NCBI GenBank assembly: GCA_001247695.2
Contig: LGRX02035510.1
Location: 1-64,000 of the forward strand
Direction: 5' to 3'
Origin: Cymbomonas tetramitiformis
Taxonomy: Eukaryota > Chlorophyta > Pyramimonadophyceae > Pyramimonadales > Pyramimonadaceae
DNA length: 64,000 nt
Positions within the stretch are counted from its first letter, which is position 1. The number at the start of each line of letters is the position of its first letter. Positions 22,258-41,937 of the stretch are shown here, piece by piece. The notes beneath the pieces are model-generated. The model saw nothing but the letters and a program-made list of their open reading frames with translations. It was not told the DNA's origin and searched no databases. A program made the translations under genes and the position numbers.

Positions 22258-25200
22258 ATGATTGCTACAGCAAATAGAATGACGCGGTCTCGCGTCCGTA
22301 GATTAGAAACGATTTTTGATGATGTGGGTGCGCAGCACACTGCGACACCACACACGCCGCGGCTGCCAGCTCCGACCACCGCAGCTGCGAGGGAAATTCT
22401 TGAGAAGTGTCAGCAGTTGGCTCGGGAAAATTTCGACAGGAGAGTTGCTAAAACCGTTGCCACTAAGATTCTTGGAGACAAGTCTGAGCGCTTCGCTGGG
22501 ACCGAGACAGATGCAGTCGACGTTTTTTCACAGGTCATGCATGAGCTACGCACGCAGTTTCTGCTGCAGTCACAGGCATTTGCTCCCCTGTTTGACTTGA
22601 CCGACATGGCTGTTGAGGCTAGGCATGAGGCCAATGAGTTGCTGCTCTCGGCTCTGACGTTTCTGGCTCGCCCTGGATCGCCTGCTCGTGACTGGCTTGA
22701 GGCCTCTGGGTCTGACGTTCCTGGAGATGGCAAGCGCGCTGCCCTTGAGGTGGTGCGCATGCTCCAGGAACGCTCAGAACCCTTTGACTCTTTTGAGTCG
22801 TTGCTGGCGGTTCGCATCCCCAACAGCGAAGATCCTGACCGTGGCATCCGTGAGTTCAATGGCCTGTTGCGGGACGTTCAGCGTTCCCACAACTTGCCAG
22901 AGGACGCGGTGAAGCGGCAGTTTCTCAAGGCTCTCGGCAATTCGGCTTCATACCGTGACTTGGCTAATTCCTTGGCTCGAGCTGACCAGCGGCAGGGCGT
23001 GTCTCTTTTGACTATTCAGGCTCGTGTGCGGGAGCAGTTCCGCCACGGCCTGAAGGTCTCTGGCACCCCTATTTCGGCTCTGTCATTCGGCGATGGCGCG
23101 TCTGACCTAGCTGCGGCGTTGTCCAGTCTGCAGAAGCAGCTGGAGCGCATGCAGCAGGACATTCGTGACCTGAAGCGGCAGAAGCGGGAAGGGGCACCGC
23201 CTGCGGGCAAGCACCTTACCCGCTCTGCTGCTAAGCATCATCGTGCTGGTGTTAAGCCAATTGGCACCGCTCCTCCTGTCTCGTTTGACAAGAAGAGTGG
23301 TGCCTTCGTGCCCCACTGCAGAAATGCGGAGTGTGCACAAAGTGGTTTGAAGCACTGGCATGCTGAATGCCCCAACGGCGGTCCTCACTCTCCCCACTAC
23401 TGTGGTGCAGTTGAGGACTATGAGACTGACTGCCTGGCTGTTCGTTTCCAGCGTTTCTATGACGCTGGGGATGAACATGCCTTCGAGTCGCTGTGCGCGA
23501 TGGAGGGTCGCCCAGAGGTGTGCGAGCTGTCGGCGCAATCTTTTGTGACGGCTGAGCCCACATCTCTGCGGCACTTTCAGGATGCGGCGGCTTCCGCTCA
23601 GGATGCGGCAGCTGACGAGGACGGCATGGCTCAGTTTGGTCTGGCCACATTCCACTTGGGTGCACAGGGCTCGATTCCGCCACCGCCTGCGGTTCGGCAT
23701 CCCTCTGCACTCGTGGCTGGTGGTGTGCCTGCGGCTCATGACCCGCCAGTGGTTATCCCTGGCTCTCTCGGCTTGCCTGGCTCTGTCCCGTCACTCCAGC
23801 TTGGCGACTCTGCACCGGCTCCGCTATTTGCTGGCATGAGGATTGAGACTTCTGACATTGGCTCTGAGGTCTCTGACAATGACCAAGGCTCTGACAATGA
23901 CTCTGACGGCGGGCAGCAAGTGGCTTTTGGCTCCTTCGGCACTCTTGAGCATGACTCTGACAGGGGAGCATCGCCAGCAGCAGCTCCGGTGTACCGTCCG
24001 CGGGCTCCGCCGGGTTTTCTCCGATGTGCTTTGATGTCTTCGGTGCTTTGTTGTTCTCTGCTAGTCAGCGCTACGGCATCTCTGGTTGCCGTGTGCGGTG
24101 GTGACAGGGGCCTGGTTGAGCCCGGAGCCGCCGTCCGTCGGTTTGCTGGAGATTTCTCTGCCTCGATTCCACCACTTGGTACTGCAGGCATCCGTGATTG
24201 GCCGTCAGATGATGGAGTTCTTCTGTCTTCTTCTTCAATGCTCAAACCGCCGTGGGATTCTGCTTATTTGAGTTCTTCGGTGGTTTTGGAATCTTTGCAG
24301 TCTTCGGTTACTTTACATTCTGCTGTGGATCCACCTTGCCCGCTTGGGTCTGATGGTGTGTCACAAACCACGGCTTATCGTGTACCTCAGCCGGGTTGTG
24401 ACACTTGCTGTAGCAGTCTCTGTGACGAACGTATGACACGCGCAGTACGATACGCGCGAGGAGTTATGACAGTGACGAGATACGGAAATACGGATGGGTG
24501 TTACACTTGTTTGGAGATAGCGAGAATATGTAGGGCGGCGTAGCAGGGTGAGCCAGACGCTCATTTTTGTTTTGCCTTCGTAACAGTGATTCCGAAAATA
24601 GCCAGGACTCGCTTAAGACCGCGAAAACAGCAGTGTTATGAGATAATTTGTAAGATACAGTATTCTTCTGCTTGTAAAGACATACATTTGTGGACTTGTC
24701 CTTGTGCGATAGCGTCAGAACTGTAATTAACAGTCTTTTTCAAAACAAAAATGTGCCATATTACAGACATGTCGTCTGTAATGCTGAGAGTTCAACAGCA
24801 GTCCTGAAGAACGAGACCTCTGAATGGTGATGCCAGGGACGGATTTATCCGTACTGGTAAGCCTTGGAAGAGGTTGAGTGAAGCAGGCTGTTGCGACACT
24901 CGAAGTTCACCAGTCTTGCAAAGTACAGCGACAGCGATCACAGCAGAACCGGTTGCTAATTTTGCAACATGATTGCAGCGTTGAGAATTATGTACTGGGC
25001 TATTTCGGGAAGTGACATCCTGATGGAGCAAAGCACCAGACGGTAAAGCCAGGGACGGATTCATCCGTACTGGTACGCCTGAAGGCGTGGAGCGAAACAG
25101 GACTGTCAGTGGACACCATCACGACAGCATTCTTTGTAGCCACTTGACCCATGCTGGCGTTCTGCTGACTTACTGCGTGGACCAGAGACACTGAGGGCAG

Positions 25201-28200
25201 AGGCAACCTTGCTGGACATCTGGAAGAGCCAGTATAAGACAGGGTCACAGATGAAACCTTGCTCACCAGTCATGGACGAGATTATCCTGGCAGTGATTGC
25301 TACTTAGAGCAAAGCACTGAAAGGTGAGGCCAGGGACGGATTCATCCGTACTGGTAAGCTGGGAAGTGTGGAGTGAAAAGAGCCTTCACACCAGTATCTC
25401 TTCTCCACCGGGAAGGTAGCAACGGAATCCAAGACTGACCGTCAGGAGCAGCAAAGGGCAGAGAGGCGTGCCCAGAGAGCGATACGAGTGAGCCAGCACT
25501 TCACAGAGCTGGAAGGAGAGGAAGGGGCTGCCAGTGGCCAGCCTGAGGCCCAAGCACTAGTACAGCCTGAGGCACAAGCACCAGTACAACTGCAAGCCCA
25601 GGCCCAGGAGCCGTTAGTAATCTTTGAGGAAGACATGGAGTACACTGACTCCGCGCGCGTCAACCTTGGTACGCTGCCCAACTACACGGGCACCAAGGAA
25701 GAAGATCGGCCCAAGTTCCTGAGGGAGTTCGCCGACATGTGCGAGAATTTCGTACGGCAGCACAACGCCAACGTCAGGAGGAGGCTCAGGTCCGGGGCTG
25801 GCACTCTCACCGAAGCACAGATGAAGACCCTGAGAGAGACTCCCCCTGACTTTGAGTATCTGTGGGACATCGTCCCTGCGTGTCTGGCTGGAGAGAACTC
25901 ACAAGCTCTCAGCTGGTGGCGCGAGAACTATGAAAAAGGGGGGGTAGTGGCCTCCAACATGGACCGGGTCCTCAAGGACACTAGCGAGCATGGCCCACTC
26001 GAGGGTACCATTCCGTGTGCTAGGCCCCCTTTCAATGAGATGAACACTGGCACCACGTGGGTGATAGCGAGGCCGGTGACGAACCAAGACACCCAAGGGG
26101 AGGTTTCCGACGAATATCTGACTGATGGAACCTCCCTGAAAGGCTTGACGGGACGTGATGGCACCCGTGATACCCAGTACTTCTACGCGCTCAGGGGCTT
26201 CATCGCTGCCCTTGACAAGAAGTTCATGATGAAAGGGACTCAAGAGAAAGTGGATCTGTTGACACAGAAGCCACAGGAGGTGGGGCAGGATGGGCTGACC
26301 TACATGAAGATGTGCCAACGCAGGGAAATGCAGCTCAACACTGGGAAGGTGTTGAGCGATGAAGAGCTGCGTACCTTCATCGAGGACTGCGTGGACAACC
26401 TGCGCATCAAGGTCTTCCAGACGCGGGTGAAGGAGCAACTGAGGGCACAGTTCCCGCCACCCAATCGGGTGACCTGGAAGGACCTGGAGGCCATCGTCGA
26501 GGTTCAAGACAAGCTCAAGGGCGATGCAGAGTCTTGGATCCTCACCTTCCTCCAGGAGATCACCAGACGGTGTGGCTGCCAGTACTCCACCTGGGAGGCG
26601 CGACAGCATGGCCTTGACCTCAAGGCCATAAAGAACTCGATCAAGAAGATTGAGTCCTCTGAGGTGGTGCAGTCAGGCGAACCGGAGAACAGCAAGAAGG
26701 CAGATACACCACCTTCTAAGAAGATGAAGAAGGAGGTGAATGTGGCCGAAAGAGCTAAGAAGGCCTCCTACAACAAGACGCCACCGCCAGCAGAGGGCGT
26801 GCGTACGAACGACAAGCCCAAGTGCTTGCGCTGCTTTGGAGGGGGCTGGCATGAGTCCGATCCCGAGCAGTGCAGGAGTGGTTATAAACACGTCAAGATG
26901 CCTGCTGGATTCCACGAGAGCAGGCTTGGTTCCAGCAAGTGGTGGGACGCGGAGAACGCCGCTCTGCGCATGTACAATCTGAAGAACCGCTTCAAGAACT
27001 CTGACTGGGGCATCCTGGTGACGGACTGGCAGCAGCTGTCCAACGACGAGAAAGACAAGTACAGAGCCAAACAGGCACCGGAGGACAAGCAGAAGAGCGC
27101 CACTGGCAATCCTGAGGCGTTGAAGGCAGAGTACCAGGGCATGGTGGCTGCTAGGAAGACTGCCAGTCGTGCGGGCAGTGTGAAGTCGCAGGTGCTGTCC
27201 GAGGATGAGGGCTCCGACGAGGAACCAGTCGCAGCGCACGTCGCGGAGAGGGAGACCCACACCGTCGATGCACGCGCGCACCACCATGGCAGCGCAGGGG
27301 TAGGAGTGTCGTCTGGCCCTCCAACCGAGTTACTCTCAGCTATGGCCGAGGAGATGGGCGAAGAGGAGCTCTCGAGCGCCCTCAACACCTTGGGTCTGGG
27401 GGCACTCCCCGAGACGCTGTGCAAGAGTGCGGAGTCTGAACTCACGGCGGCTCCAGCAGTAGCCCTGGGAAGTACCCAGCGCATGAGGGGCTTCCCAGTG
27501 AAGACACCCGAGGAGTACGAGGCAGACGCACAGGTGCCCATGGCGCCTGCGGCGGACGAGATGCAGAGGAAGGTGCAGCTCATGGCCTCCGTGATCAAGA
27601 GTCTGGGAGCAGCTTTCCGTAAGCTAGCTGCTGGACTCGTAGCAGAAGGTCGCATAACAGCTCCAAGGGGTGTGGAGACCTTGGTGGAACTGGCTGAGAA
27701 CAACCAGCTCCCCGTGCCGACAGCCTCAGCAGCAGACTGCCAGGACATCAGCGATGAGGATGACGACTGCCCGGGCATGGAGTCGGGCGACGACAGCGAC
27801 GATGATGACGATTGCCCGGGCATGGAGTCGGGCGACGACAGTGACGAAGAAGAGGTTCCTCTGGACGAGATGCCGGAGGACATGGTGGAGCAGCCCAGGA
27901 AGGGGAGGACGACGGTGCATGTAACCGCTGCAGCGGCCACCGTCCAGGAGAGCTACGGGGTGAGAGACTTCAGCGAGAGGGGCGAGCTGCACGCAGGGAC
28001 CATGGAGGCCAAGGCGTACGAGCTATTGAAGAAGAAGATGCTCAGTGGCCTGACAGAGGAACAGCTCACTGCCATGGCACAGGTCCAGCCTGTATGCAAG
28101 CTCCTGAACGAGTCTTTGGCACAAGGAATGGCGCTGATGGCCTCGGGAGGCCTGCTCATGTTGTACAAAGCGCTTCTTCTGGACACGGGAGCCAACTGCA

Positions 28201-31200
28201 ACATTATTCCCATCAGGACAGCCAACAAGTTGGGCTTGACCATCTTTGATGCGGAGACAGGGGCCAGGGTGGCTAGATGTGATGGCAGCCCCGCAGAATT
28301 CACCAAGTACTGCTACGTGGATGTGGTCCTCGCCGCGGGCACGCCGTACATGACCCTGCATCGGCTCCATGCCTTCGTCACTTACACCAACGACACTACG
28401 TGGGACTTCTTGGTGGGCACGGGACCCCTGAAGAACGCCCTCAAGCTGACCATCGACCTCTACAGAGGCATCGCCACTTCTGAGGCCGCGGTGTCACTGG
28501 GCATGAAGGAGAAGGTTACGCTGCCGTTGATCGAGTTGACGCCGCCCGTTGATGCAAGGAGCAAGCGGAACGAAGACCCGAGAGTGTGCCTGGCGACTGA
28601 GATCTTCGACGTCGATGCCACGGCAGCGCGCATTCTTGCCCCCGCTTTTGAGGATTGCGCGCTACCACCACGTGAAGCGGTGTCCCTGGACACAAGGGGA
28701 GAAGACCGTCTGGCCCTCGCAGGGGAGAGGTGTGCGCCTGCACCTTGTGCATTCTCGCGAAACCACCCCGAGCTAATGGACAGCCTGGCGTCATGGCTAG
28801 AGGAGATGAGGCTGAGAAGGTTCAACTCGGAGGAGAGGGAGAGGCTCGAGGCGCGCTGCCAGTCTATGGTGGAGGCGGGCTTCTTGAGACCCAGCTCAAT
28901 GATACAAGGCGAGCTCACTGGGCGAGTCAGCTCACACACCGAAAGCTCAACGTACGAACCTCCGGCGCCTGGCACGTCCTTGACAGACCAGATGTTGGGC
29001 ATGCTACAAGCATCATCACGCAGCCAACGGGAAGCCAATGTGGCGACCAGAGGTGAGTGGTCCAGTGCTGAAGAGCCAGATGCGAGGGGGTCCGTCACGC
29101 CAGCCGGCCTGGCTACGACTCAGTCAGACCCTCGTTATCCAGACCTCACGCTGGAGCAAGAGGCCGCGAGCGAAGCTGACTTCAAGCTGGCCAGCGTACA
29201 GCCATGGGTGGGCATGGCAGTGAACCCGTGGGATTACCAAGACAAGGAGAGCAGCTGGTCTCAGCAGCGCTTGTACATCGACCGCACGGGCTATGCTCGT
29301 CTGTGCACACTCTGCGAAGAGGGCGATGGAGGTGGTGTGGACGCAGGATTTGTGCGGGTCAAGTTCTCGCGTTGTGGAGAATACAAGACCATCTTGGAGA
29401 CGGAGCTACTGTGGCCCGACTTTACGTTGGTGGACCAGAAGGTTGACAAGGAGACGAAGATACCCTCAGAGACCTGGACCACAAGGGCGAGCGGCAGGAA
29501 GGACAACGACCAGGTCCCACTCCCTGACTGTGGTGCCCATCGGGAGGCTGGAAGGTACACGATGGCGAGTGTTCAGGAGATCCTCAACACCCATCAGACT
29601 TACCCAGGGGTCGTGACGGGCAAGCTCATGTGGGACAAGGTGGCGCGCCAGTTCTGTGTGCTCAGCGAGCACACTCGCGCCCAATGGGATCTCATGGAGC
29701 GCATGGTACGTCACACCATGGAAGGTGCCGCCAACATGACCCCCATGGGTAAGATGACTGGCGAGTTCCAGCTGCCTTTTTACTACGAGAAGGACCAGCG
29801 CTGGCAGTACCAGCATCTAAAGTACGTACAGCGAGTGGACATCGCTGACCTTCGGGCTCGTCTGAAGGTGAGGTACGGCATGGAGGTGGCTGGTGTGGAG
29901 GACGAGAGTGTGAAGGTGACCCCGCAGCTCACGCTGTCAGACGCAGCGGACAAGATGGGGAAGTTCTACCCGGTGACAGATGGGGAAGGAGGCAGTGGCG
30001 AGGTGTTCAGCACGAACGCCGCCGCCGTGGAGTACCTACACCTGGGGGACAACGCGAGAGTGATGCTCGGTGCATGCAAGACAGAGGAGCAAGCACATGA
30101 CGCGCTGGACACTTATGGGGCCAGAAGAAACCCTCCAGTACGCACGTCCAAGACTCTCAGGACGCCGAGGACGGTCAGGGGGGATGAGGCAGGGCCATCT
30201 GGCTCCGCACCGCCACCATCCTCAGCCACGCTTCGTTTAAGACATCAAACCTGGCCCAATGGCGTCTTCGACCCTGCCATGTTAGAGTACCACGCTTCAG
30301 TGTTCCAGGGCACCTACGAGCCAGAGTCGCCCACTCGCAGCGAGAACACAGCTGGGGAAGCCGACTGGCTGGATCTGGGAGGGATCTCAGAGTTCACGGC
30401 GCTGCATGGACAGACGGTCTTCCTCATCCAGTACCGTTGTTTCATGGGCGAGATCGAGTTCCAACTTGGGAAGCCCTTCGCGCAGCGAGGAAAGGGGGTG
30501 CACACGCAGCGACTCAGCAGCCAGACCCTGCACCAGTACTCCTCCTCCGCAGGAGTGGGACAAAGGGGAGAGTTTCTGCCTCTGGGTGGGCAGTCGAAAG
30601 GCTGCACGGGAGGACTCCTCGGCACCTTACAGAAACACATGGAGCATCTTGTTGATCGTACTCAACTCTTGGAGATAGCCAGAAGCCATTTGAGCGATGG
30701 CCCGCGGCAGGGCACCCTACGGGTGTTCAAGACCCGTGCCAACGCCCGGTCCAAGGCCGTATACTACCTCTTCGAGGACAATCGCTACTACCGTGAGCGA
30801 GGACCCAGTGACATGGCGTTCACCTTGGAGTACCTCTCCTCAGGAACGCGCAAGTTCGACTGCTGTAGCTGGGAGACCTGGAGAAAGGTGGCAGTGATGC
30901 ACCGAGAACCATTGTCTGCGTTCACATCCTCGGTGGGCCCGGCATTGCTGGCTGAGGCACGTCGGGCAGAGGTGCAGGTGCGTCTTCGAAACGACTTCAT
31001 GAGGTGCCTGGACCCAATCGAGGGAGAGGATGCAGGAAGTGAGGAGGGAGATGGCAGCATCTCGGGATACTCTTCCGACCTCGCGGCTGCTGAGGGTGTG
31101 AGCACTCACACGTGTCGCACCAGAACACCATCGCCGCAGACAGAGGATGAAGACAGCGTGGAGGTCATCAGTGAAAGACTTGTTGGACTGTCTGCCAGTT

Positions 31201-34200
31201 TGGCACAAGGGCAAGCCGAGGTCGCAGCAAACAACCTCACCATGGCGGCTCTCTCGGAATCGATACGGGCACGTCAGGAGATCATCAGGTCGTCGGAGGA
31301 GATCATCAGAGAATATGAAGAACGACCTCGTGCTGCCCGCGCGACTGCGAGGATGAGCACGCTTGGGCCAGACTGCCCTGGGCTTGATGGTCGTGATGGC
31401 GCGCGAGCCGCGCCCACGCAGGCACTCTGCTCTGGCCGAGCTCTCGGCGGGACGCAGACCAGGGGCTTGGAGTGCAACATGGCACAGAGACCTGAGCACC
31501 AGTCAATCCACGACATTCTGAGATCCCCGGCACATTCCGTCTGCACGCAGCAGACTGAAGCCGTGCCTCCAGCTGCACAAGAGCTGGACTCCGTTTCGTA
31601 CGTGCCATCAACCCCGAGCTCTACAGCGCCCAGCAGTCCGGAGCGTTCCAGTGGCCTCGTTGCGCATGTCGACACTCGACCTTCAGGCCATCCTGCGGCG
31701 CGCCCACAGAGTCCAACTGAGGGTGCCGTGCAGCAGCGTTCGCCACGAGCTGGTCAGCGCAGGAGGAGATCACCGAGCCCCAGGGAAGGCGCTCATCGTC
31801 AGGATGCGGCTCGCGGTCGACGTGCCGGCAATGGCGCGTCGCGTGCTCCCCAGAGACGCCAAAGTTATGATGAAATCTGGGAGGAGAGGAGAAGGGAGAG
31901 CGCACTGGGGCCTTTTCAAGGGGGCACCGGGCCGGCTGCAGCCCGGCGTGCCCGTCACTGAGAAGCAGCCCCGGCGAAAAGCCGGGCACGCAGCCCGCCA
32001 ATGATAGGCGGGCGAAGCGCACTCAGGTGTGCTTCCTGCTCGTGGGGGTGTTCGTGCGCTTGCATTGGCCGCAGCTGCCTCATTTTGCAGTAATGGCAGT
32101 ATGGATGGCTATGGAGGTATTCAGATTTCTTGGTGGGGTCGTCGCCTGCTGGGCATTCCACACTGAAGTGCCCCGCAGAGCCATGGCACGCGCATTGTGG
32201 GCCATGCGCGCAGCACCACTCGAGCCATGGGCACATCAACAGGCGCCTCTGCGAGTGCTGTTGGAGCTGGCTAGGCACCTACTGCTGTTGACCAAGGGGG
32301 CCCTTGAGGTAGCTGGGCTCCACCATGCCAGGCGTGGGCTGTGGTACGTGCCATTGCTACGGTTCTGTCTCGCCATGCTCGCCATGCACTTCACGCACAT
32401 GGTCGGCACTCTGGGGTGCGTCTTGACAGTTGGCGCCCACGTTGTCCACCATGGGTTGCCATGCTCCGGCTTGATTTACAATGGTGGCACATTCGCCACG
32501 CTGGAGACTCAGATAGGTCGCGCGCTGGCGGTCGCCCAGCGGATCTTGGCCGCAGGGCCGGCTACGCTGGCCGCTGTTCCTCGGCGCATGCAGAAGCCGC
32601 GCTTTGCCGCCCGACTGCAGCGCCTGCAGTTCACAGCCGCTTGCTACCGAGTGGCGCACTGTGTCTATGTGATATCAGTCTTGGCGCTGGTGGTCTACGT
32701 GTCTGCGGGAGGAGGCCTGGGCCGTATGCAAGGGGGGTGGAGGATGTTGACTTGCATACTGACCCTTCACCCTCCAGTTAAACCAGTGGGTACCAGCAGA
32801 ATTTTAAAACTTTTGCTGCTGCTAGCGGTGGCTGCTTGGGTGGCCGCTGTGGCCCCTAGGGGAGTTTCAGGGCGTGCTGACGATGGGATCGTGCTCGGGC
32901 TCGCCGACCAGATCTGCCAGGACCGCCTGGGAAGACCAGAGGTCTTCGCGCCAATGGGACACCGGATGGGAGGCTATGGTGGCAGAGCAAGACGAGGTGC
33001 TTCCGCACACGGTGCTGGACACGTTACAGCCAGGGGGCACGACCAGGGTCACCAAGGACGAGGCCGCGTGGCTGGACACCGAGCTCAATGCCACCTTTGG
33101 AGGACATCCCGAGTTCACCGAGGAGAATTGGGAGGAGATGCGCAACGTGGTAAGGAGGTGCAGCTACTGCTTCGCCAACAAGCCGCAGGACATCAAAGGC
33201 TACCATGGGGGCGCGGCACATGCGACCTTCGCCATCCCTTTCAAGGACGAGACTAAGGTAGCTTACCAACGACCGAGGAAATACAGCCCGGGAGAGCAGG
33301 AGATCATCGACCTGCACTGCAAGGAACTGCTGGAATATGGCTTCATCGAGCCGGCTTCGCAGCACTGCAGACACGCCAGCAACGTGGTGGTCGCGGGGAA
33401 GAAGGATCACGACACTGGACAGTGGACCTCGACGAGATTCTGCGTCGACCTCCGGTCTACGAACCGGTTGTCGCTGAAGGATAACACGTTACCACATCGT
33501 CCAGAAGAGCTCTACCAGCGCGTGGCCAAGGCCAAGTTCAAGACTACCCTGGACGCGACCAAGGCGTTCCACCAGATTCCCATGACCACTGAGGAGGACA
33601 GGGACAAGACAGCGTTCTGGTGGGGCAACCAGCTTTATCGCTACACATCCATGCCGTTTGGAGCAGCTGGAGCACCGCAGCCTTCATCAGGATCATGGAC
33701 TACGAGCTACGTCACCTGCAACACTGCACGGTGGCGTACGTCGATGACGTGTGCATATACTCAGACACCGCTGAGCAGCACATCAAGGATGTGGAAGCCG
33801 TGCTTCGCACTTTGGGGGATGCAGGGATACGTCTGCATTCGGGCAAGTCGACCTTCGGGTCAGCCACGGTGGACTTCTTGGGCTACCGCATCGGCTATAA
33901 CACCATTGGCGCGCAGGACATCAAGTGCAAGGCCATCCAAGAGCTGCCCAAGCCCGAGGATAAAACTGGAGTACGCTCCATCCTTGGACTCATGAACTAT
34001 TACAAAGGTCTGGTGGGGGAACCCATGGGACCCAACTACTCAGAGATGGCACGACCATTGAACGACTTGCTCAGAAAGGAAGTGTTGGATGTCAAGGAAG
34101 CTTGGGGGAAGGATCAGGACCAGGCATTGCAAGCATTGAAGGACGCCCTATGTTCGGGGAGATGTTTGAAGCCCATTGATTACAGCAAGCCCATCTTCCT

Positions 34201-37200
34201 CTACACAGACTGGAGCAACCATGGCATTGGCGCAGTGCTGGGGCAGAAGGACGAGAATGGCGTAGAGCACATCTGTGTGGTCATCAGCCGCTCGCTGTCG
34301 AAGACCGAGAGACAATACGCGAGCTTCCAGGGTGAGATGCTGGCAGTGGTGTGGGCCATCCGCACATTACGACAGTACCTGCACGGGATCCACTTCACGC
34401 TGATCACCGACCATTCGCCGCTCACAACACTCATGGAGAAGGGGGACCTACAAGGTCAACACCTACGCTGGGCCATCAGCCTCCAGGAGTTTGAGTTCAC
34501 GGTCCAGTACCGACCAGGTCCGAAGAATGAGAACGCGGATGTGCCATCCAGGTACCCACTGCCCAGCACCGCAGACGAGACTGGTGCCCGTTTGGATCGT
34601 GAAGGGGACCGAGCCAGGGAAGCGGGGCGTGCCGAGAGGCCAACGCGCTGCTTCACAGACATCATTTGCTTGGAAGTGACCAGGGAGCCACCACTTGGTC
34701 CCGAAGTAAGCCCAGAAGCCCAGGTGGCCAACTACTGCGAGAACATGGTCAGGGAGCAGCTGGGGACCAGCGCAGTCCATCGACTGTTTGATTTGCACTA
34801 CCAAGAAGAGCTGGAGTGTAACAAGGGGGTCATGTTTGACACCGACCACCCGGAAGTGGCCAGGTGCTCGGGCAGGTTGACTCGAGTCGCCTGGGATGCC
34901 CTCAGCCAGGTCCGGCCAATCAGGGGTATGCATTCCGGAGGCTCACCGGCGATATACGGCGACGAGACCATGGAGGGTGGTAAGCTCAAAGTGCCGAAGA
35001 AGATCGACACGAGAGTGATTGACAAGAGCTTCTTCCGGGAAGCCAGAGAAGAGGGCGTGGTCTGCTATGAGCCGTGTGGGGGCCTGTGTGCTGGACTAGA
35101 GATGCTCTTGCGCTGCGGAGTTAAGGTCAACAAGTACCTCTACCAGGACATCTCGAAGTCCAGCCAGACGGTAGCCAGGGCCAGGTGCATGGCGCTCAGC
35201 CGCCGTCATCCTGACTTGTTCCGTGCCGAGGCAGCCCACTTGGAGCAACTGCCCAGCAACATCGAAGACACCAGCCTCATTGACCTTGTACATGCAGGGG
35301 CATTGAGTGGAGAACAGTGGGTCATGGTGTGTGGATATCCATGCCAGGACCTGTCACCAGCTGGCAAGCTGGCTGGTCTGGAGGGCAGGCACAGCAGACT
35401 GTTCTACCAGGCAGTGCGAGTCCTCTCCACGCTGCAACAGCTGCAGCCTCAGAGACCGCCAGCATATGTGCTAGAAAACGTTTCTCCGCTGTCACACAGG
35501 GAGAACTCGAAGATCAGGAAGGAGGTGTTTCCCATCATCAACAGCGTGGTGGGCCAGCCGGTGTCCTTTGACGCGGCGCGCGCGGGATCATACGCGCATC
35601 GCCTACGAGCATATTGGAGCAATCTGTTTCAAAATCAGCAGTTCAATCTGGTGATGGAGCGGGTGGACAGACCACCAGACAGATACGTGCGTGATATTCT
35701 GCAGCGAGGCTGGAAGCCGCGCAGGGTCGTCACAGGAGACAGGAAGCCTCACTACACCGCCAACGTTGTGGAGGAGCCTATGAGAGTATTGCCAACCATC
35801 TTGGCGACGCAAAACTCTCGTGCTTTTCGCGCGCCTCGCGCAGGCACAGTGGTGACGAAAGGAGATGATGATGAAGTGGGGGAGACCAGAGAGGTTAACC
35901 TGGACGAGAAGGCAGTTGCCATGGGGTACAGCGCAGGTGAGCTGCGCGCGGCACATGGCATGAAAGACGAAGAATTGGCAGGAGTGCTTGGCCTTGCTAT
36001 GGATCGAAGAGCAATGGAGCTATTGTATGCGATTGCCGAGGTCAGCACGACCAAACTGCCGAAGAGTGAGGAGAGTGAGGAGGAGGAGCATGGCACGCTA
36101 GTTGCCATCCCCATCGCGAAATCCACCAAGGTGGCTGCCACCTCCGAGGACACGGCTGAGCCGGTGCGAGCACAACTAGCAGAGTGGATCACCAGTTCCA
36201 GCGGCTACACCCAGCAAGTCGCGCGACGCCTCAGCCATCAGGACTGGGAAGAACGACTGCAACGCATGTGCAGCCAAGGGCAGAAAGGTACACAGGGGCT
36301 AGGCACCGCCGACGCTGTTCCACGCCGCAGACAGTGGAAGATGGCCTCCATGAAGCTCGCGGGCTATGAGGCACGTCACCGGCAGGCCTTTTCAAGACCT
36401 GGAGGCAAGCCAGCAGAGACGAGCTCAGCCCCAGAGTGGGCACCAGTGACAAAGGAGAAAGAGATGAGGCTGCCCAAGCTGCCTGACACTACGAGAATGG
36501 TTGCCATGCTAGCCAGCGTAACCAACCAGGAGTCACTCCGAGAAAGATACCCCGATATACACGAGGACGAGCTATGCCTCGCGTGGGTCAAGACAGGAGG
36601 AAGAGTGGAGGTGCCCAAGGAGGAGTATCACAGGGTAAGGAAGAGAGCAGCGCGTCACCGTTGGGACGAGCTCATGGGCGAGTTATACATGGTCACCGTC
36701 AGTGGTAAGGAGCTGCTGGTGCCCAAGCCCTGTGACAGGATTCAGTTGGTGCGTGAGCACCATGAGAGGACCGGCCATTGGGGCATCAGGCGGACACTGA
36801 ACCTGTTGTGGCAACGCCATTACTGGGCAGGCATGAAACAGGATGTGCAAGCAGTGGTCACTCAGTGCCAGACTTGCCAGAGGGTGAAGACGCACTATGC
36901 ACGGGAGGAGGCGAATCTCACGCCGCTGGAAATCAAGTCCTTCATGTACCGCTGGTCCCTGGATTTAGCGTGGCCTACGAAACGCATCACGAAGGCTGGG
37001 AACCAACGCGTCTTGGTCATGATTGAGCACTACACGCGATTCGTCGTGTGTGTTCCAATCCCCGATAAGGAGGCCGCCACCATCGCCAGCGCATTTCGCT
37101 ATCATGTTCTATCCGTGTTTGGGGCGCCTGCAGAATGTTTGGTGGATGGGGGCACAGAGTTTGAAGGTGAGTTCTCTGCTCTATGCAAGCAGTGTCTCAT

Positions 37201-40048
37201 TGACCGAAGAGTGACTTCACCGAGTTCCCCAGAGAGCAATGGCTTGACGGAACGGGTGGTACGCACCCTCAAGTTTTGCTTCAAGAAGATGGCCCTCGAC
37301 AAGGGCCTGGACTTCGAGTGGGACGAGATGCTCTGGTCACTCGTACTCAGCTACAACGCAGCTAGGCAGCAGTCCACTGGAGTGGCGCCATTCACCTTGC
37401 TTTTCGCTCAGGAAGCCACGGTGCCACCAGATCTTCGTGCTCGACCCGAGTTGGACTTTGGGAAGCAGGAGGAGAAGACACTGGCTGACGATCTGTTACA
37501 GCGAGCCGCCATCGTAAAGAGGCTCATGGTACATGCAGGGTGCAACCTGGAGATCGCTCAGCACCGCGACACTTTACGGTACGAGCACAGGAGGAGTGGC
37601 AGTTACGAGCCAAAGCCGCACCAGTTCAAGGCAGGCGATTTCGTATTATATATACGACAACAACCGCGCTCTGGCATGGAGGTAGCTACCAAGCCAGCCA
37701 TCCTGAAGATAGTCAAGGTGCAAAGAGATGGAGTGGTAGTGTTGGAGGACAGCACGAAGCTGCGGGAGAAGAGCACAGTGCAAAATATTGCACCATGTCA
37801 CCTACAAGTGAAAGACCAGTACGACTGCAGTGCAGCCATTCCCAGCAAGCATCTCGCGTGTGAGGCGTGCATGCGGACAGATGGGGAGGCAGCCATGTTG
37901 CTGTGTGACACCTGTAACCGTGGTTATCACACGTGGTGTCTGAATCCAGCGCTGGATGGAGTACCTGAAGGGGATTGGCAATGTCCCAAGTGCTTAGGTG
38001 GGACCGTGGTGGCAGCTGCCGCCGAGGTGAGCGCGTCAATCGTCGACAAGATGGCGGCCATGGAGCTGCAGCTGAGAGAGAAGCTGGGATCAGATGTGGT
38101 ATTGTTGCCTGCAGACGTGGGTCCGCATCGTGCAGTGAGGCCGGGACGTGAAGACCCATGGCAGGCGCTGACCTCGCGGCAGATGCTCAGAAAAGAAGGG
38201 AGCATGGGGGATCTTCCTGACAGAGTGGCCTGGGGAAACCAGGAGGAGCTCAGCAGAGTGATCACAGAAGTGATGCCAGGATTCTGGCATGAGGGCCATC
38301 GTACCATCTTGAGCAGGAAGTGTGCAGAGCAGCACACTCGCGCGAGAAGTCTCCGCAAGACGTCCACGGTGCAGGCCATGAGCCCCGAGGAAGTGCAGAA
38401 GAGAGGAGATGTGACGCAATTGAGCAGAGCTCAGGTGAAGATTGCCAGTCAACTGGATTGGGGCTTAGAGTTGGTGATGACAGTTCCTCAGGAGGTCAGA
38501 CGTTTGGCGCACGAGGTGACTTGGGAGAAGATCACACAGGTATGGGATCCTTGGGCTGGCACAGGTGTCATTGGCAAGGTTATGTCGCTGGAATGGCCTC
38601 ACCTGAAGGTTATGAACAATGATTGGAACCCGCAGTTGAAATGGCACGAAGCCCTTAATGCTTTACAACCGGGCAATTATCGAGCCTGGAAGGAGAAGTA
38701 TGGGGTGTGTGACGCGGTGGTGACCTCACCCTGGTTCGCAGTGCTGGATATTGCGTTGCCATTGGCAGTACTGGCCAGCCGAGTGGTGGCTTGTATTCAT
38801 GTGCCATCGCACTACATGACAGATATGACAGAAAGCAGGGCACAATACTTTCGTAAGCTGTGTCACGCTGGACGCTTACATGTGATTGGGCATTTGGAGC
38901 ATGGACCTATTGGCAGAAGATGCATGTGGGTCATGGTGTTTCGCAACCCTTTGACAAGAGCCAGGATGTTGCGAGGAGGAGAAGCTTCTGGAGTGGGTAT
39001 GTTTACCTTCAGCATGGGCAAGTTCGCAATGGATGGCGTTACGACAGAAGATGCTGAGCAAGCTCTTGTCTAATGTCTGTGCTACCAGTGGCAGCTACAG
39101 ATGGGGGATGTTGAGAAAAAGAGCTTGCATAAGTTGTGAGAAGAGATAAAGAGATATCAAAAATTTTGAGATTTTGTATAGTTACAATAGCAAGCTAACT
39201 GTGCAGTCATATAAGGAAACATATACCAAGCCGAGCTAGTGTTGTGGAGGCGCTGACAATAAGTAAGACTGTCTAGTAGTAGGGCTAGAGAGTTGTGCTT
39301 TGTGTGGACGCTTCGTGCATAAGTTCGCGACAGCTGTCACAAACCACGGCTTATCGTGTACCTCAGCCGGGTTGTGACACTTGCTGTAGCAGTCTCTGTG
39401 ACGAACGTATGACACGCGCAGTACGATACGCGCGAGGAGTTATGACAGTGACGAGATACGGAAATACGGATGGGTGTTACACTTGTTTGGAGATAGCGAG
39501 AATATGTAGGGCGGCGTAGCAGGGTGAGCCAGACGCTCATTTTTGTTTTGCCTTCGTAACAGTGATTCCGAAAATAGCCAGGACTCGCTTAAGACCGCGA
39601 AAACAGCAGTGTTATGAGATAATTCATAAGATACAATATTCTTCTGCTTGTAAAGACATACATTTGTGGACTTGTCCTTGTGCGATAGCGTCAGAACTGT
39701 AATTAACAGTCTTTTTCAATGTTGAGAAAAAGAGCTTGCATAAGTTGTGAGAAGAGATAAAGAGATATCAAAAATTTTGAGATTTTGTATAGTTACAATA
39801 GCAAGCTAACTGTGCAGTCATATAAGGAAACATATACCAAGCCGAGCTAGTGTTGTGGAGGCGCTGACAATAAGTAAGACTGTCTAGTAGTAGGGCTAGA
39901 GAGTTGTGCTTTGTGTGGACGCTTCGTGCATAAGTTCGCGACAGGTGCTCAATTTACAACAGACAGCTTACAATTCACTTCGGGATTCTTCCGTGCTTGC
40001 ATCCCGACCGCTGAACTCAGCTCTGCTGACCAGCCTCAAAGTGGCTGA
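22258..40048 (+). CDS. Gag-like ORF of element 2, interrupted by the gypsy-like element
   Basis: Coding parts are 22258-24358 and 39948-40048, 733 residues in all. The frame crosses the insertion site exactly when one GGTG copy is kept (GAT GGT G|CT CAA) and ends at TGA 40046-40048. Order: helical capsid-like region with ILGDKSERF and ELRTQF, a coiled coil (SSLQKQLERMQQDI), a Cys/His motif (HCRNAEC...HWHAEC) and an Asp/Ser-rich stretch. A membrane segment (CALMSSVLCCSLLVSATASL) and a Ser-rich tail follow. It is colinear with the ORF at 1032-3598, so this is a conserved Gag-plus-membrane design. As it stands the frame runs from 24359 into the gypsy terminal repeat and stops at 24543. Confidence 0.85.
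24359..24742 (+). repeat. Terminal repeat B, 5' copy
   Basis: 384 bp, TGTCACAAACC to CTTTTTCA. Followed by AAACAAAAATG, not by repeat A and not by an obvious tRNA primer site. Confidence 0.93.
24760..24782 (+). other. Perfect hairpin just inside the 5' repeat
   Basis: ATTACAGAC-ATGTC-GTCTGTAAT, nine paired bases and a 5-base loop, 18 bases after repeat B. It occupies the place where a tRNA primer site is expected, so self-priming or packaging is possible. Confidence 0.6.
24833..25354 (+). repeat. Three leader hairpin repeats (CCAGGGACGGAT...ATCCGTACTGG)
   Basis: Nearly identical 25-base stem-loops at 24833-24857, 25049-25073 and 25330-25354 upstream of the Gag ORF. Each is followed by TACGCC- or TAAGC-like sequence and a GTGGAGTGAA-like block. 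They are remnants of ~215-280-bp tandem units. Repeated stem-loops in a retroelement leader suggest an RNA packaging or translation signal. Confidence 0.75.
25488..31961 (+). CDS. Gag-protease polyprotein of the gypsy-like element
   Basis: The frame is open from about 25377. The first in-frame ATG is 25635 (MEYTDSARVNLG); the earlier start at 25488 would need GTG. Residues below count from 25488. A helical capsid-like region covers about 60-420. A knuckle-like CLRCFGGGWHESDPEQC (CX2CX5HX6C) is at about 446, followed by a WQQLSNDEKDKYRAK stretch that resembles part of an HMG box. An acidic repeat DDCPGMESGDDSD occurs twice at about 760-790. The aspartic protease has LDTGANCNIIP with Asp at about 899, and WDFLVGTG further on. 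The last 1,100 residues are unusual for a Gag-Pro and contain no domain I know. They end in Arg/Pro-rich sequence. Two GC-rich hairpins flank the stop codon. The following frame is open across it, which would allow recoding, but I see no classic slippery heptamer. Confidence 0.85.
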   Translation: MSQHFTELEGEEGAASGQPEAQALVQPEAQAPVQLQAQAQEPLVIFEEDMEYTDSARVNLGTLPNYTGTKEEDRPKFLREFADMCENFVRQHNANVRRRLRSGAGTLTEAQMKTLRETPPDFEYLWDIVPACLAGENSQALSWWRENYEKGGVVASNMDRVLKDTSEHGPLEGTIPCARPPFNEMNTGTTWVIARPVTNQDTQGEVSDEYLTDGTSLKGLTGRDGTRDTQYFYALRGFIAALDKKFMMKGTQEKVDLLTQKPQEVGQDGLTYMKMCQRREMQLNTGKVLSDEELRTFIEDCVDNLRIKVFQTRVKEQLRAQFPPPNRVTWKDLEAIVEVQDKLKGDAESWILTFLQEITRRCGCQYSTWEARQHGLDLKAIKNSIKKIESSEVVQSGEPENSKKADTPPSKKMKKEVNVAERAKKASYNKTPPPAEGVRTNDKPKCLRCFGGGWHESDPEQCRSGYKHVKMPAGFHESRLGSSKWWDAENAALRMYNLKNRFKNSDWGILVTDWQQLSNDEKDKYRAKQAPEDKQKSATGNPEALKAEYQGMVAARKTASRAGSVKSQVLSEDEGSDEEPVAAHVAERETHTVDARAHHHGSAGVGVSSGPPTELLSAMAEEMGEEELSSALNTLGLGALPETLCKSAESELTAAPAVALGSTQRMRGFPVKTPEEYEADAQVPMAPAADEMQRKVQLMASVIKSLGAAFRKLAAGLVAEGRITAPRGVETLVELAENNQLPVPTASAADCQDISDEDDDCPGMESGDDSDDDDDCPGMESGDDSDEEEVPLDEMPEDMVEQPRKGRTTVHVTAAAATVQESYGVRDFSERGELHAGTMEAKAYELLKKKMLSGLTEEQLTAMAQVQPVCKLLNESLAQGMALMASGGLLMLYKALLLDTGANCNIIPIRTANKLGLTIFDAETGARVARCDGSPAEFTKYCYVDVVLAAGTPYMTLHRLHAFVTYTNDTTWDFLVGTGPLKNALKLTIDLYRGIATSEAAVSLGMKEKVTLPLIELTPPVDARSKRNEDPRVCLATEIFDVDATAARILAPAFEDCALPPREAVSLDTRGEDRLALAGERCAPAPCAFSRNHPELMDSLASWLEEMRLRRFNSEERERLEARCQSMVEAGFLRPSSMIQGELTGRVSSHTESSTYEPPAPGTSLTDQMLGMLQASSRSQREANVATRGEWSSAEEPDARGSVTPAGLATTQSDPRYPDLTLEQEAASEADFKLASVQPWVGMAVNPWDYQDKESSWSQQRLYIDRTGYARLCTLCEEGDGGGVDAGFVRVKFSRCGEYKTILETELLWPDFTLVDQKVDKETKIPSETWTTRASGRKDNDQVPLPDCGAHREAGRYTMASVQEILNTHQTYPGVVTGKLMWDKVARQFCVLSEHTRAQWDLMERMVRHTMEGAANMTPMGKMTGEFQLPFYYEKDQRWQYQHLKYVQRVDIADLRARLKVRYGMEVAGVEDESVKVTPQLTLSDAADKMGKFYPVTDGEGGSGEVFSTNAAAVEYLHLGDNARVMLGACKTEEQAHDALDTYGARRNPPVRTSKTLRTPRTVRGDEAGPSGSAPPPSSATLRLRHQTWPNGVFDPAMLEYHASVFQGTYEPESPTRSENTAGEADWLDLGGISEFTALHGQTVFLIQYRCFMGEIEFQLGKPFAQRGKGVHTQRLSSQTLHQYSSSAGVGQRGEFLPLGGQSKGCTGGLLGTLQKHMEHLVDRTQLLEIARSHLSDGPRQGTLRVFKTRANARSKAVYYLFEDNRYYRERGPSDMAFTLEYLSSGTRKFDCCSWETWRKVAVMHREPLSAFTSSVGPALLAEARRAEVQVRLRNDFMRCLDPIEGEDAGSEEGDGSISGYSSDLAAAEGVSTHTCRTRTPSPQTEDEDSVEVISERLVGLSASLAQGQAEVAANNLTMAALSESIRARQEIIRSSEEIIREYEERPRAARATARMSTLGPDCPGLDGRDGARAAPTQALCSGRALGGTQTRGLECNMAQRPEHQSIHDILRSPAHSVCTQQTEAVPPAAQELDSVSYVPSTPSSTAPSSPERSSGLVAHVDTRPSGHPAARPQSPTEGAVQQRSPRAGQRRRRSPSPREGAHRQDAARGRRAGNGASRAPQRRQSYDEIWEERRRESALGPFQGGTGPAAARRARH
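32027..32880 (+). CDS. Hydrophobic multi-membrane segment between protease and reverse transcriptase
   Basis: This frame is open from before the Gag stop and formally runs to 33256, but its meaningful part ends near 32880, where the RT homology appears in another frame. It encodes several hydrophobic segments, including FAVMAVWMAMEVFRFLGGVV, FCLAMLAMHFTHMVGTLGCV, CVYVISVLALVVYV and LKLLLLLAVAAWVAAV. Arg/His-rich loops separate them. The register equals that of the downstream pol ORF at 33620, so it was probably the N-terminus of one long pol polyprotein. An envelope-like role cannot be claimed: the position before RT is wrong for env and no signal or fusion motif is seen. Confidence 0.55.
32826..33676 (+). 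CDS. Reverse transcriptase, N-terminal part (displaced frame)
   Basis: Carries the first RT blocks of Ty3/gypsy type: KYSPGEQEIIDLHCKELL, SNVVVAGKKD, RFCVDLRSTNRL, TTLDATKAFHQIPM (catalytic Asp of block A) and TSMPFGAAGAP. The frame differs from both the hydrophobic segment upstream and the rest of pol downstream. Homology changes frame at 33676/33677, where the Pro codon of the GAP motif is one base short. This fits one indel near 32800-32880 and a second at 33676. Confidence 0.85.
33620..39073 (+). CDS. Pol polyprotein: RT-RNase H-DNMT3-like MTase-integrase-PHD-MTase
   Basis: Residues count from 33620; homology starts at about 20. The RT catalytic block AYVDDVCIYSD has its first Asp at 42. 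RNase H (FLYTDWSNHG, QGEMLAVVWA, LITDHSPL) spans about 190-320. A cytosine-5 methyltransferase covers about 480-820: motif I YEPCGGLCAGLEML, motif IV GYPCQDLS with Cys at 575, motif VI LENV with Glu at 619, motif VIII RLRAYW and a C-terminal VLGLAMDRRAMELL block, closest in feel to DNMT3. Integrase follows with an HHCC finger (HHERTGHWG, CQTCQRV) at about 1041-1090 and a DDE core (SLDLAWP, LVDGGTEF, SNGLTERVV). A PHD finger (CEACMRTDGE, LLCDTCNRGYHTWCL, DWQCPKC) lies at about 1415-1462. The C-terminal class-I methyltransferase-like domain has DPWAGTG at about 1643 and TSPWF at about 1703. The protein ends at TAA 39071-39073, close to the PPT. Confidence 0.9.
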   Translation: MGQPALSLHIHAVWSSWSTAAFIRIMDYELRHLQHCTVAYVDDVCIYSDTAEQHIKDVEAVLRTLGDAGIRLHSGKSTFGSATVDFLGYRIGYNTIGAQDIKCKAIQELPKPEDKTGVRSILGLMNYYKGLVGEPMGPNYSEMARPLNDLLRKEVLDVKEAWGKDQDQALQALKDALCSGRCLKPIDYSKPIFLYTDWSNHGIGAVLGQKDENGVEHICVVISRSLSKTERQYASFQGEMLAVVWAIRTLRQYLHGIHFTLITDHSPLTTLMEKGDLQGQHLRWAISLQEFEFTVQYRPGPKNENADVPSRYPLPSTADETGARLDREGDRAREAGRAERPTRCFTDIICLEVTREPPLGPEVSPEAQVANYCENMVREQLGTSAVHRLFDLHYQEELECNKGVMFDTDHPEVARCSGRLTRVAWDALSQVRPIRGMHSGGSPAIYGDETMEGGKLKVPKKIDTRVIDKSFFREAREEGVVCYEPCGGLCAGLEMLLRCGVKVNKYLYQDISKSSQTVARARCMALSRRHPDLFRAEAAHLEQLPSNIEDTSLIDLVHAGALSGEQWVMVCGYPCQDLSPAGKLAGLEGRHSRLFYQAVRVLSTLQQLQPQRPPAYVLENVSPLSHRENSKIRKEVFPIINSVVGQPVSFDAARAGSYAHRLRAYWSNLFQNQQFNLVMERVDRPPDRYVRDILQRGWKPRRVVTGDRKPHYTANVVEEPMRVLPTILATQNSRAFRAPRAGTVVTKGDDDEVGETREVNLDEKAVAMGYSAGELRAAHGMKDEELAGVLGLAMDRRAMELLYAIAEVSTTKLPKSEESEEEEHGTLVAIPIAKSTKVAATSEDTAEPVRAQLAEWITSSSGYTQQVARRLSHQDWEERLQRMCSQGQKGTQGLGTADAVPRRRQWKMASMKLAGYEARHRQAFSRPGGKPAETSSAPEWAPVTKEKEMRLPKLPDTTRMVAMLASVTNQESLRERYPDIHEDELCLAWVKTGGRVEVPKEEYHRVRKRAARHRWDELMGELYMVTVSGKELLVPKPCDRIQLVREHHERTGHWGIRRTLNLLWQRHYWAGMKQDVQAVVTQCQTCQRVKTHYAREEANLTPLEIKSFMYRWSLDLAWPTKRITKAGNQRVLVMIEHYTRFVVCVPIPDKEAATIASAFRYHVLSVFGAPAECLVDGGTEFEGEFSALCKQCLIDRRVTSPSSPESNGLTERVVRTLKFCFKKMALDKGLDFEWDEMLWSLVLSYNAARQQSTGVAPFTLLFAQEATVPPDLRARPELDFGKQEEKTLADDLLQRAAIVKRLMVHAGCNLEIAQHRDTLRYEHRRSGSYEPKPHQFKAGDFVLYIRQQPRSGMEVATKPAILKIVKVQRDGVVVLEDSTKLREKSTVQNIAPCHLQVKDQYDCSAAIPSKHLACEACMRTDGEAAMLLCDTCNRGYHTWCLNPALDGVPEGDWQCPKCLGGTVVAAAAEVSASIVDKMAAMELQLREKLGSDVVLLPADVGPHRAVRPGREDPWQALTSRQMLRKEGSMGDLPDRVAWGNQEELSRVITEVMPGFWHEGHRTILSRKCAEQHTRARSLRKTSTVQAMSPEEVQKRGDVTQLSRAQVKIASQLDWGLELVMTVPQEVRRLAHEVTWEKITQVWDPWAGTGVIGKVMSLEWPHLKVMNNDWNPQLKWHEALNALQPGNYRAWKEKYGVCDAVVTSPWFAVLDIALPLAVLASRVVACIHVPSHYMTDMTESRAQYFRKLCHAGRLHVIGHLEHGPIGRRCMWVMVFRNPLTRARMLRGGEASGVGMFTFSMGKFAMDGVTTEDAEQALV
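39099..39108 (+). promoter_or_regulatory. Polypurine tract of the gypsy-like element
   Basis: AGATGGGGGA directly precedes TGTTGAG, the start of repeat A, not repeat B. This implies plus-strand DNA synthesis starts at A and is a key reason for treating the repeats as split. Confidence 0.75.
39109..39332 (+). repeat. Terminal repeat A, internal copy
   Basis: 224 bp, TGTTGAGAAAAAG to TTCGCGACA. Two bases (GC) separate it from repeat B, creating the palindrome GACAGCTGTC. Confidence 0.93.
39335..39718 (+). repeat. Terminal repeat B, 3' copy
   Basis: 384 bp, matching 24359-24742 except three transitions near 39625-39642. No polypurine tract precedes it. Confidence 0.93.
39720..39943 (+). repeat. 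Terminal repeat A, 3' terminal copy
   Basis: 224 bp, identical by eye to 39109-39332. One base (A) joins it to repeat B. Its end GCGACA is the right end of the whole insertion, followed by GGTG. Confidence 0.93.
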
Positions 40049-40362: not shown

Positions 40363-40539
40363 TGCTGGAAACAGCAGCTCAGGCAGTGAGGACCCGCTGC
40401 CGACGGTGAAACAACGGATCACTAAACTCGGATATACAAACGATATATACCCGAGATGAGTGACACAGGCTGACCACCGAAGATGACATACAGGAATGAC
40501 ACTAGACTGTACGAACTAGTCGTAGTGTCAATTCCAGCA
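40363..40539 (-). repeat. 3' LTR of the small minus-strand element
   Basis: 177 bp, identical by eye to 41638-41814. Confidence 0.94.
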
Positions 40540-40551
40540 CACCACCTCATC
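40540..40551 (-). promoter_or_regulatory. Polypurine tract of the small element
   Basis: GATGAGGTGGTG on the minus strand abuts the 3' LTR and shares GGTGGTG with the two larger Gag-type elements. Confidence 0.7.
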
Positions 40552-40989
40552 TGAGGTGGACCAGCTAGTGACACTCACCACCCTAGCTACTAGAGTTTAC
40601 AGAGAAATGTCAAGATGTTAACTCTAGGGAGCTAGTCAAAGTCACAGGTGGCAAGATGAATGTACAGGCTAGCAAAATAATACTGCTAAGCCTAGGAAAT
40701 TGCTAGGACCATTCTGGTCTGCTAAAATTAATGCTCTGCCAGCTAGTGGTGGGTGAACACACAATCCTCGCCTGTCTGCATGTGATGGAGAATGTAAAAA
40801 ATAAGTCTGCCTGTCGGTTTAGCTTTTAGCATGCTGCGAACTGAAAAGGCCTCTTGCCTGTAAATTGCTCGTCTTAATTGTGAAAGGCTGCCCGCAAGTG
40901 GTGAGACATAAAACAGCATCCTTCAGCCCAAAACTACAGCAAGTGGTGGAGAATTCAAAAAGGGAACACCGCCTGTCTGTTTAAAGAAA

Positions 40990-41618: not shown

Positions 41619-41637
41619 GCGTGGTGGGCCCATAACC
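41619..41637 (-). promoter_or_regulatory. Primer-binding site, half-tRNA(iMet)
   Basis: GGTTATGGGCCCACCACGC on the minus strand directly follows the 5' LTR. Its complement GCGTGGTGGGCCCATAACC is the anticodon arm of eukaryotic initiator tRNA-Met, the half-tRNA primer known from Drosophila copia and yeast Ty5. Confidence 0.88.
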
Positions 41638-41814
41638 TGCTGGAAACAGCAGCTCAGGCAGTGAGGACCCGCTGCCGACGGTGAAACAACGGATCACTAA
41701 ACTCGGATATACAAACGATATATACCCGAGATGAGTGACACAGGCTGACCACCGAAGATGACATACAGGAATGACACTAGACTGTACGAACTAGTCGTAG
41801 TGTCAATTCCAGCA
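41638..41814 (-). repeat. 5' LTR of the small minus-strand element
   Basis: 177 bp with TGCTGGAA...TTCCAGCA ends. Confidence 0.94.
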
Positions 41815-41937
41815 AGTCTTGCTTCACTGTCTGGGTTTCCGAGAGCATAAAGCCTCGGCCAGACACTGTTTATGTGATTATCAGTTTGATGTGCAGCGAG
41901 CTTAGCCGGAGAGCGGATCTGTCTTTCTCGCATTTTG

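Follow-up and report, generated by a model that had tools for sequence, protein, structure and literature searches.

A split-repeat Ty3/Gypsy-type retroelement of Cymbomonas tetramitiformis with a DDE integrase and a possibly shifted insertion frame

Split direct repeats in the order A1-body-B1-A2-B2 have been described for the tyrosine-recombinase retrotransposons PAT, Ngaro, TOC and VIPER (available excerpts of PMC4157794 and PMC6681497), and a single sentence in the legend to Fig. 4 of a 2018 paper attributes a DIRS-type repeat structure to KnitGypsy-Dnmt3, a Gypsy element of Klebsormidium nitens bearing a DNA methyltransferase (PMC5890265). The element considered here lies in a window of 64,000 nucleotides from the green alga Cymbomonas tetramitiformis (positions 1-64000 of contig C25320, LGRX02035510.1) and, like KnitGypsy-Dnmt3 as that legend presents it, combines Gypsy domains and a cytosine methyltransferase in Pol with a DIRS-type order of repeats. 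It belongs, however, to another algal lineage, and the comparison is one of descriptions: the duplications, joints, priming site and mechanism given below do not figure in the legend. What is new with respect to that precedent is the target-site duplications, the scars at a joint, the frame shift that we propose and its mechanism. An earlier examination of the DNA from its letters alone (the sequence-only reading) had suggested a new class of integrase-using split-repeat element; the layout did prove to be heritable, but the 2018 legend makes "new class" too strong a term. A literature search covering few subscription journals returned no further title on the mechanism of integrase-bearing split-repeat elements.

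The element is built in the order B1-internal-A1-gc-B2-(A)-A2, where gc denotes a two-base GC spacer (39333-39334) within GCGACA-GC-TGTCAC and (A) an extra A (position 39719) at the joint between B2 and A2. The left terminal repeat, B1 (24359-24742, + strand), begins with TGTCAC and differs from B2 (39335-39718, +) at 3 of 384 positions, while A1 (39109-39332, +) and the right terminal repeat A2 (39720-39943, +), ending in GCGACA, are identical at all 224. The outer ends are bordered on both sides by GGTG (24355-24358 and 39944-39947), and a polypurine tract, ACAGATGGGGGA (39097-39108, +), abuts A1. The B-internal-A-B-A order, the TGTCAC...GCGACA ends between GGTG copies and the polypurine tract before A had all been recognized correctly by the sequence-only reading. 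Its claim that removing the element restores the host open reading frame (ORF) fared less well: the frame does stay open across the joined flanks, but for just 33 codons, and it measures 733 residues at the empty site versus 761 with the insert. The interrupted ORF (22258-24543, +) gave no Pfam match at E 0.01.

The split layout B-internal-A-gc-B-A is real, heritable and the usual integrated form of this family. The genome searched comprises 851.7 Mb in 25,745 contigs, whose labels (C...) are used to name the copies. When the query consisted of B1 and the adjoining first part of the internal region, the best 40 left ends were all full-length and all of the form host-B1-internal, and four more (C10637, C5703, C3279 and C12751) began in the same way; none of these 44 left ends, which represent 42 distinct flanks (C17172, C17173 and C17174 have one in common), was preceded by A-gc. 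On the right side, the best 40 hits, a score-ranked list and thus biased toward complete ends, all spanned the entire 1044 bases of internal-A1-gc-B2-A2. A search with A alone yielded 40 scored hits, from which 30 loci, corresponding to 23 places, were cut out: 15 places showed internal-A1-gc-B2-A2 (one with a shortened A2) and one a rearranged version of it, four were internal-A-host, and the remaining three comprised a solo B-A, an internal-A-gc-B-internal arrangement and a copy at a contig edge. Genome-wide counts, which demand exact letters and gave zero with the reversed patterns used as controls, were 638 for the A-gc-B junction (a 22-mer across the spacer), 308 for A-gc-B-A and 12 for A-gc-B-internal. 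Among 20 further stretches examined, eight (L031-L034, L040, L042, L044 and L046) lacked the features sought, the predicted position being off or the element interrupted. Variants also exist, such as the internal-A-gc-B-internal tandem (L015/L049, on C25615) and doubled A-gc-B units at C2249:18539/19150, 611 bases apart, and C2407:17570/18204, 634 bases apart.

Each insertion whose two flanks were read carries a 4-bp duplication of its target. This holds for 13 of 13 split-layout elements (C25320, GGTG; C22105, TCTC; C13813, TATG; C3279, TATA; C12751, CGCA; C10637, rearranged inside, TGTT; C148, AGCA; C23482, CACA; C23270, TACA; C19161, GATG; C718, TGCT; C4334, CCTA; C994, CAAT) and, once two B-internal-A copies (C5703, TACA; C10141, GCTG) and one solo B-A (C25434, AATT) are added, for 16 of 16 insertions overall. 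Ends were paired by contig, strand and matching duplication, and five of the 13 pairs span 20-39 kb, presumably with other insertions inside. The tabulation of copies by order and flanks for which the sequence-only reading had called shows, therefore, that B...A ends, 4-bp duplications and an internal A-gc-B junction prevail among the copies read; the ordinary A-B long terminal repeat (LTR) that it had named as the contrary case is seen at none of the 44 left ends, the exact A-gc-B-internal pattern occurring at the 12 places mentioned.

The same organization recurs in a second family, represented by a related protein (P0004) that shows 68% identity over 98% of the pol query and matches 21 contigs. 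In one copy, C14073, the boundary GATGGGGGA/TGTTG (the slash marking the joint) is that of the first family and leads into an A-like repeat. This repeat agrees with A at 125 of 211 aligned positions (59%), a value reached in 0 of 300 shuffles, and ends in GCGACA; no further repeat follows within the stretch read, which makes C14073 an internal-A-host copy. A search with the second-family A repeat gave 40 scored hits, including five pairs with a spacing of 687-751 bases, and the one complete right end that was read (C19044) has the joints GCGACA-GC-TGTAACAAAC, with a TGTAAC start, CTTTTTCA/TGTTGG and GCGACA/other DNA. The GC spacer and the CA/TG joint are thus common to both families in spite of their widely diverged repeats.

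The recombinase encoded is of the retroviral type. In pol the order is reverse transcriptase (RT)-RNase H-integrase, with a methyltransferase segment between the last two (Pfam scan and motif positions), and the HHCC-DDE integrase announced by the sequence-only reading is indeed present (36734-37252, +), with D,D(35)E spacing: H2C2 and rve domains were matched (PF17921, 2.9e-16; PF00665, 5e-7, at 30.3 bits slightly under the curated cut-off), as were integrase chains of prototype foamy virus, and the seven residues fall at H1048, H1053, C1083, C1086, D1115, D1176 and E1211. No Pfam match to a tyrosine recombinase was obtained in the four element ORFs scanned. Although split direct repeats are a likeness to PAT, Ngaro and DIRS elements, PAT and Ngaro are described in the excerpts consulted as using a tyrosine recombinase and making no target-site duplication; identity with them was ruled out because this element has an integrase and duplicates its target by 4 bp. 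Since this repeat order is here inherited together with a DDE integrase and duplications, it does not by itself reveal the recombinase. The RT-RNase H-integrase order, HHCC and D,D(35)E signatures and a duplication within 4-6 bp are those of Ty3/Gypsy elements; the element departs from them in its integrated form, which is not bounded by one and the same complete LTR in an LTR-internal-LTR arrangement.

In ordinary Gypsy elements, the LTR defined by reverse transcription is also the one with which integration takes place. Here, the polypurine tract and a putative priming site sit at the boundaries of A-gc-B and not at the integrated ends. The boundary between the polypurine tract and A1, GGGGGA/TGTTGAG, reads alike in all 21 internal-A junctions inspected. 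At the other side, CAAAACAAAAATG follows directly after B1 (24741-24753, +; the B1-internal boundary is identical in 10 of 10 left ends), and its exact complement, CATTTTTGTTTTG, is found at position 204 of B (24562-24574, +, in B1); when B was shuffled by dinucleotide 5000 times, a complement of 13 nucleotides arose in 2 cases. In Tf1, the priming site adjoins the LTR and is complementary to the 5' end of the RNA, which acts as the primer. The CAAAACAAAAATG/CATTTTTGTTTTG pairing, with the same placement next to a repeat, is a probable candidate for self-priming of the Tf1 type, CATTTTTGTTTTG being the proposed RNA 5' end and CAAAACAAAAATG the proposed minus-strand priming site. B also contains TGTAA, the green-algal polyadenylation signal, at positions 291, 315 and 364. 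As the polypurine tract abuts A and the putative priming site abuts B, reverse transcription should define an LTR consisting of A-gc-B. Contrary to ordinary Gypsy elements, the integration ends lie inside this LTR, at the near-palindrome GCGACA-GC-TGTCAC.

The joint between B2 and A2 reads CA/TG with no indel in 43 of 46 cases. Alignment of 44 right ends, 15 of them whole and 29 partial, covered 20,296 bases and revealed nine indels, of which three (+1, -6 and -1) fall exactly at B2/A2 versus about 0.02 expected there (calculated by hand). The A1-gc-B2 joint showed no indel in the 15 whole right ends. As the indels concentrate at B2/A2, we read this joint as one remade by end joining, which suggests that it represents the ends of the complementary DNA (cDNA) rejoined in each cycle. 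In addition, A1 and A2 of the same element differ by 0.64%, as against 1.25% between elements (15 elements; none of 20,000 permutations gave so low a value).

These observations can be integrated in a model in which a Ty3/Gypsy-type family has a copying frame and an insertion frame offset by part of an LTR, the integrase opening a circle of joined ends within its left LTR; we put the probability of this reading at roughly 0.55. The RNA would begin close to position 204 of B1, and its 5' end would serve as primer at the site that immediately follows B1, in the manner of Tf1. With the polypurine tract placed ahead of A1, reverse transcription would then yield an ordinary linear cDNA whose LTR is A-gc-B, with ends TG(A)...(B)CA, and these two ends would be joined, usually exactly as CA/TG. 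Ordinary retroviral 3' processing leaves recessed CA-OH ends and two-base 5' overhangs. In a comparable manner, the integrase would cut CA^GC^TG within A-gc-B, the GC spacer being the proposed cleavage junction, with a 2-nt stagger that yields two recessed CA-OH ends and 5' GC overhangs, and the processed ends would be inserted with a 4-bp stagger. A cut in the left (5') LTR would give exactly B1-internal-A1-gc-B2/A2, and cuts in both A-gc-B units would give B-internal-A. As for the restriction to the left LTR, we conjecture that it reflects timing, as the left LTR would become double-stranded long before plus-strand synthesis crosses the 15-kb body to complete the right one. The closest mechanistic analogy known to us is found in the circle junctions with abutted ends of IS30 and IS3, which are bacterial DNA elements without reverse transcription (PMC9333248 and PMC3299598, in the excerpts available).

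Several facts weigh against this model. A two-LTR circle contains two identical A-gc-B units, and a free choice between them predicts B-A-gc-B-internal-A as well, an arrangement that none of the 44 left ends examined shows; for this reason, an unrestricted choice of cutting site in a double-stranded two-LTR circle was rejected as a general explanation. The 12 A-gc-B-internal places can be read as tandems, as ordinary LTR copies or as the missing right-unit alternative, and about half of the 638 A-gc-B junctions fit neither of the gapped patterns exactly. Regarding the joint, two of the nine indels (L106 and L107) occupy one site elsewhere, so that indel sites can recur, and the 43 indel-free joints would also suit copying of the joint from a template, with occasional errors. 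The single TATAA of A-gc-B falls within A, which does not precede the genes once the element is integrated. Finally, in each of the four elements compared, 2-4 of the roughly 384 positions distinguish B1 from B2, some of them being positions at which elements also vary among themselves; for C22105 and C13813, two of these four, B1 is nearer to the B2 of another element than to its own. Simple LTR-type copying does not predict this B1/B2 pattern, which assembly polishing errors could also cause.

A stronger version of the model, which we hold tentatively and at somewhat under even odds, is that insertion in this lineage necessarily proceeds from a circle with joined ends and that its retroviral-type integrase treats CA-GC-TG as an "active junction" in the left LTR only, so that the insertion frame is permanently shifted. 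The concentration of indels at B2/A2 (three of nine) is the reason to think that the circle may be a regular intermediate rather than an accident. Whether integrases make productive use of a circle junction has been debated for decades in the case of retroviruses, and the two-LTR circle is usually held to be a dead end. If the frame is indeed shifted, this family would be a natural system in which to ask that question of a retroviral-type integrase, and if the circle is obligate, a natural family with many copies would depend on the two-LTR circle as its productive precursor. With a shifted frame, the solo repeats expected in such families are B-A, as in the one seen, and not A-B, and annotation tools that seek LTR-internal-LTR may misplace their ends.

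The most serious competitor, although we consider it unlikely, is templated copying of the PAT/DIRS kind, in which the RNA would run from B1 into A2, the internal A1-gc-B2 would act as a splint bridging the ends and the DDE integrase would insert the product, B2/A2 being copied from the RNA. Such a scheme could produce the one-sided layout with no argument about timing, agrees with the published repeat arrangement of PAT (PMC4157794, in the part available) and is favored by the prevalence of indel-free CA/TG joints and the incomplete homogenization of B1 and B2. Against it stand the three indels at B2/A2, where almost none would be expected if the joint were simply copied, the position of the polypurine tract and the priming-site candidate exactly at the outer A/B boundaries, and the joint homogenization of A1 and A2. 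It is rather improbable that the B-internal-A copies (four of 23 places) are the primary products, formed when a circle with just one LTR is opened by the integrase at the only A-gc-B it contains, with split copies arising from end-joined forms of the same pathway. Both such copies with their two ends read do have 4-bp duplications, but recombination between A1 and A2 in a split copy yields the identical product, duplication included, and the classification of C10141 is less sure, since the bases after its A (GCTGTCACC) resemble gc-B. An origin of the repeat order in misassembly or in recombination after insertion is hardly credible: a published assembly of the species, perhaps other than the one searched, is a long/short-read hybrid (PMC10675990, in the excerpt available), repeats can be mis-joined, and the B-internal-A and solo B-A copies resemble products of A1xA2 and B1xB2 recombination, but the order is accompanied by a 4-bp duplication at every one of the 13 sites and its joints are repeated in a family whose A repeat is just 59% identical. 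Similarly negligible is the second option of the sequence-only reading, namely that a permuted two-LTR circle integrated once by accident while the family at large has ordinary A-gc-B LTRs, since, even though the layout of the window copy is exactly the product of such an accident, the copy table refutes it: the right-end order is present at hundreds of places, the layout and the duplications at both ends recur at independent sites, the joints recur at the one complete right end read in the related family, and no host-A-gc-B-internal left end occurs among the best 40.

Regarding the remaining coding capacity, a gag-protease ORF (25488-31961, +) contains a Cys/His-rich motif at 26823 and a DTGAN protease motif at 28182, its aspartyl protease profile matches being below the curated cut-off. 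In this copy the RT is split across two frames, its N-terminal part lying in 32874-33995 (+) and shifting into the next ORF, pol (33620-39073, +), which encodes the C-terminal part of the RT, RNase H, a C5-cytosine methyltransferase, the integrase, a PHD finger and a methyltransferase-like C-terminus. The closest proteins to pol are many C. tetramitiformis proteins, the best with 97% identity across 99% of the query; scans of viral contigs found no relatives. The methyltransferase segment (35078-35527, +) is a partial profile match to PF00145 (5.8e-10) and contains GGLCAG, PCQDLS and ENV, which we take to be C5-cytosine methyltransferase motifs. The PHD finger (37859-37993, +; PF00628, 2.9e-10) lies 3' of the integrase; Ty3/Gypsy proteins of Haematococcus and Chlamydomonas eustigma, known here from proteins alone, have RT, RNase H, integrase and PHD in common with pol, and a K. 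nitens protein with a PHD finger (P0068), a 32% match to pol, may or may not belong to KnitGypsy-Dnmt3. Sequence searches with the C-terminal domain (38150-39070, +) gave no match, but its AlphaFold2 model (mean pLDDT 72.5) is predicted to have a fold like that of S-adenosylmethionine (SAM) methyltransferases, which were the top Foldseek matches (E 6e-5, with low TM-scores of 0.34 and 0.56). This domain, which has the motifs DPWAGTG and TSPWF, is a possible second methyltransferase of the same polyprotein.

Some non-coding features deserve mention. The first 46 bases of B (24359-24404) fold as a strong hairpin (TGTCACAA...TTGTGACA) of -19.7 kcal/mol, a stability equaled by none of 200 shuffles, and it could be an inverted repeat bound by the integrase at the insertion end. 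In the leader between B1 and gag, a conserved RNA hairpin occurs three times (GCCAGGGACGGATTyATCCGTACTGGT; 24826-24870, +, with similar units at 25042-25084 and 25323-25366, from the repeat family and folding), possibly a packaging or translation signal. Scans of the window for tRNA genes and Rfam families gave no matches. Directly downstream of the element, a direct repeat of about 180 bases (CTGCTGGAAACAGCAGCTCAGG...), found by eye and with no Rfam match at the gathering score, occurs at about 40366-40560 and 41637-41815, some 1.27 kb apart. Further on, a Copia-type polyprotein (RVT_2; 47461-53019, +) carries a Dam-like N6-adenine methyltransferase domain before its integrase core (PF05869, 3.2e-7; TIGR01712, 2.8e-5, under its cut-off), so that two retroelements of the window, the Gypsy-type and the Copia-type, each include a DNA methyltransferase domain.

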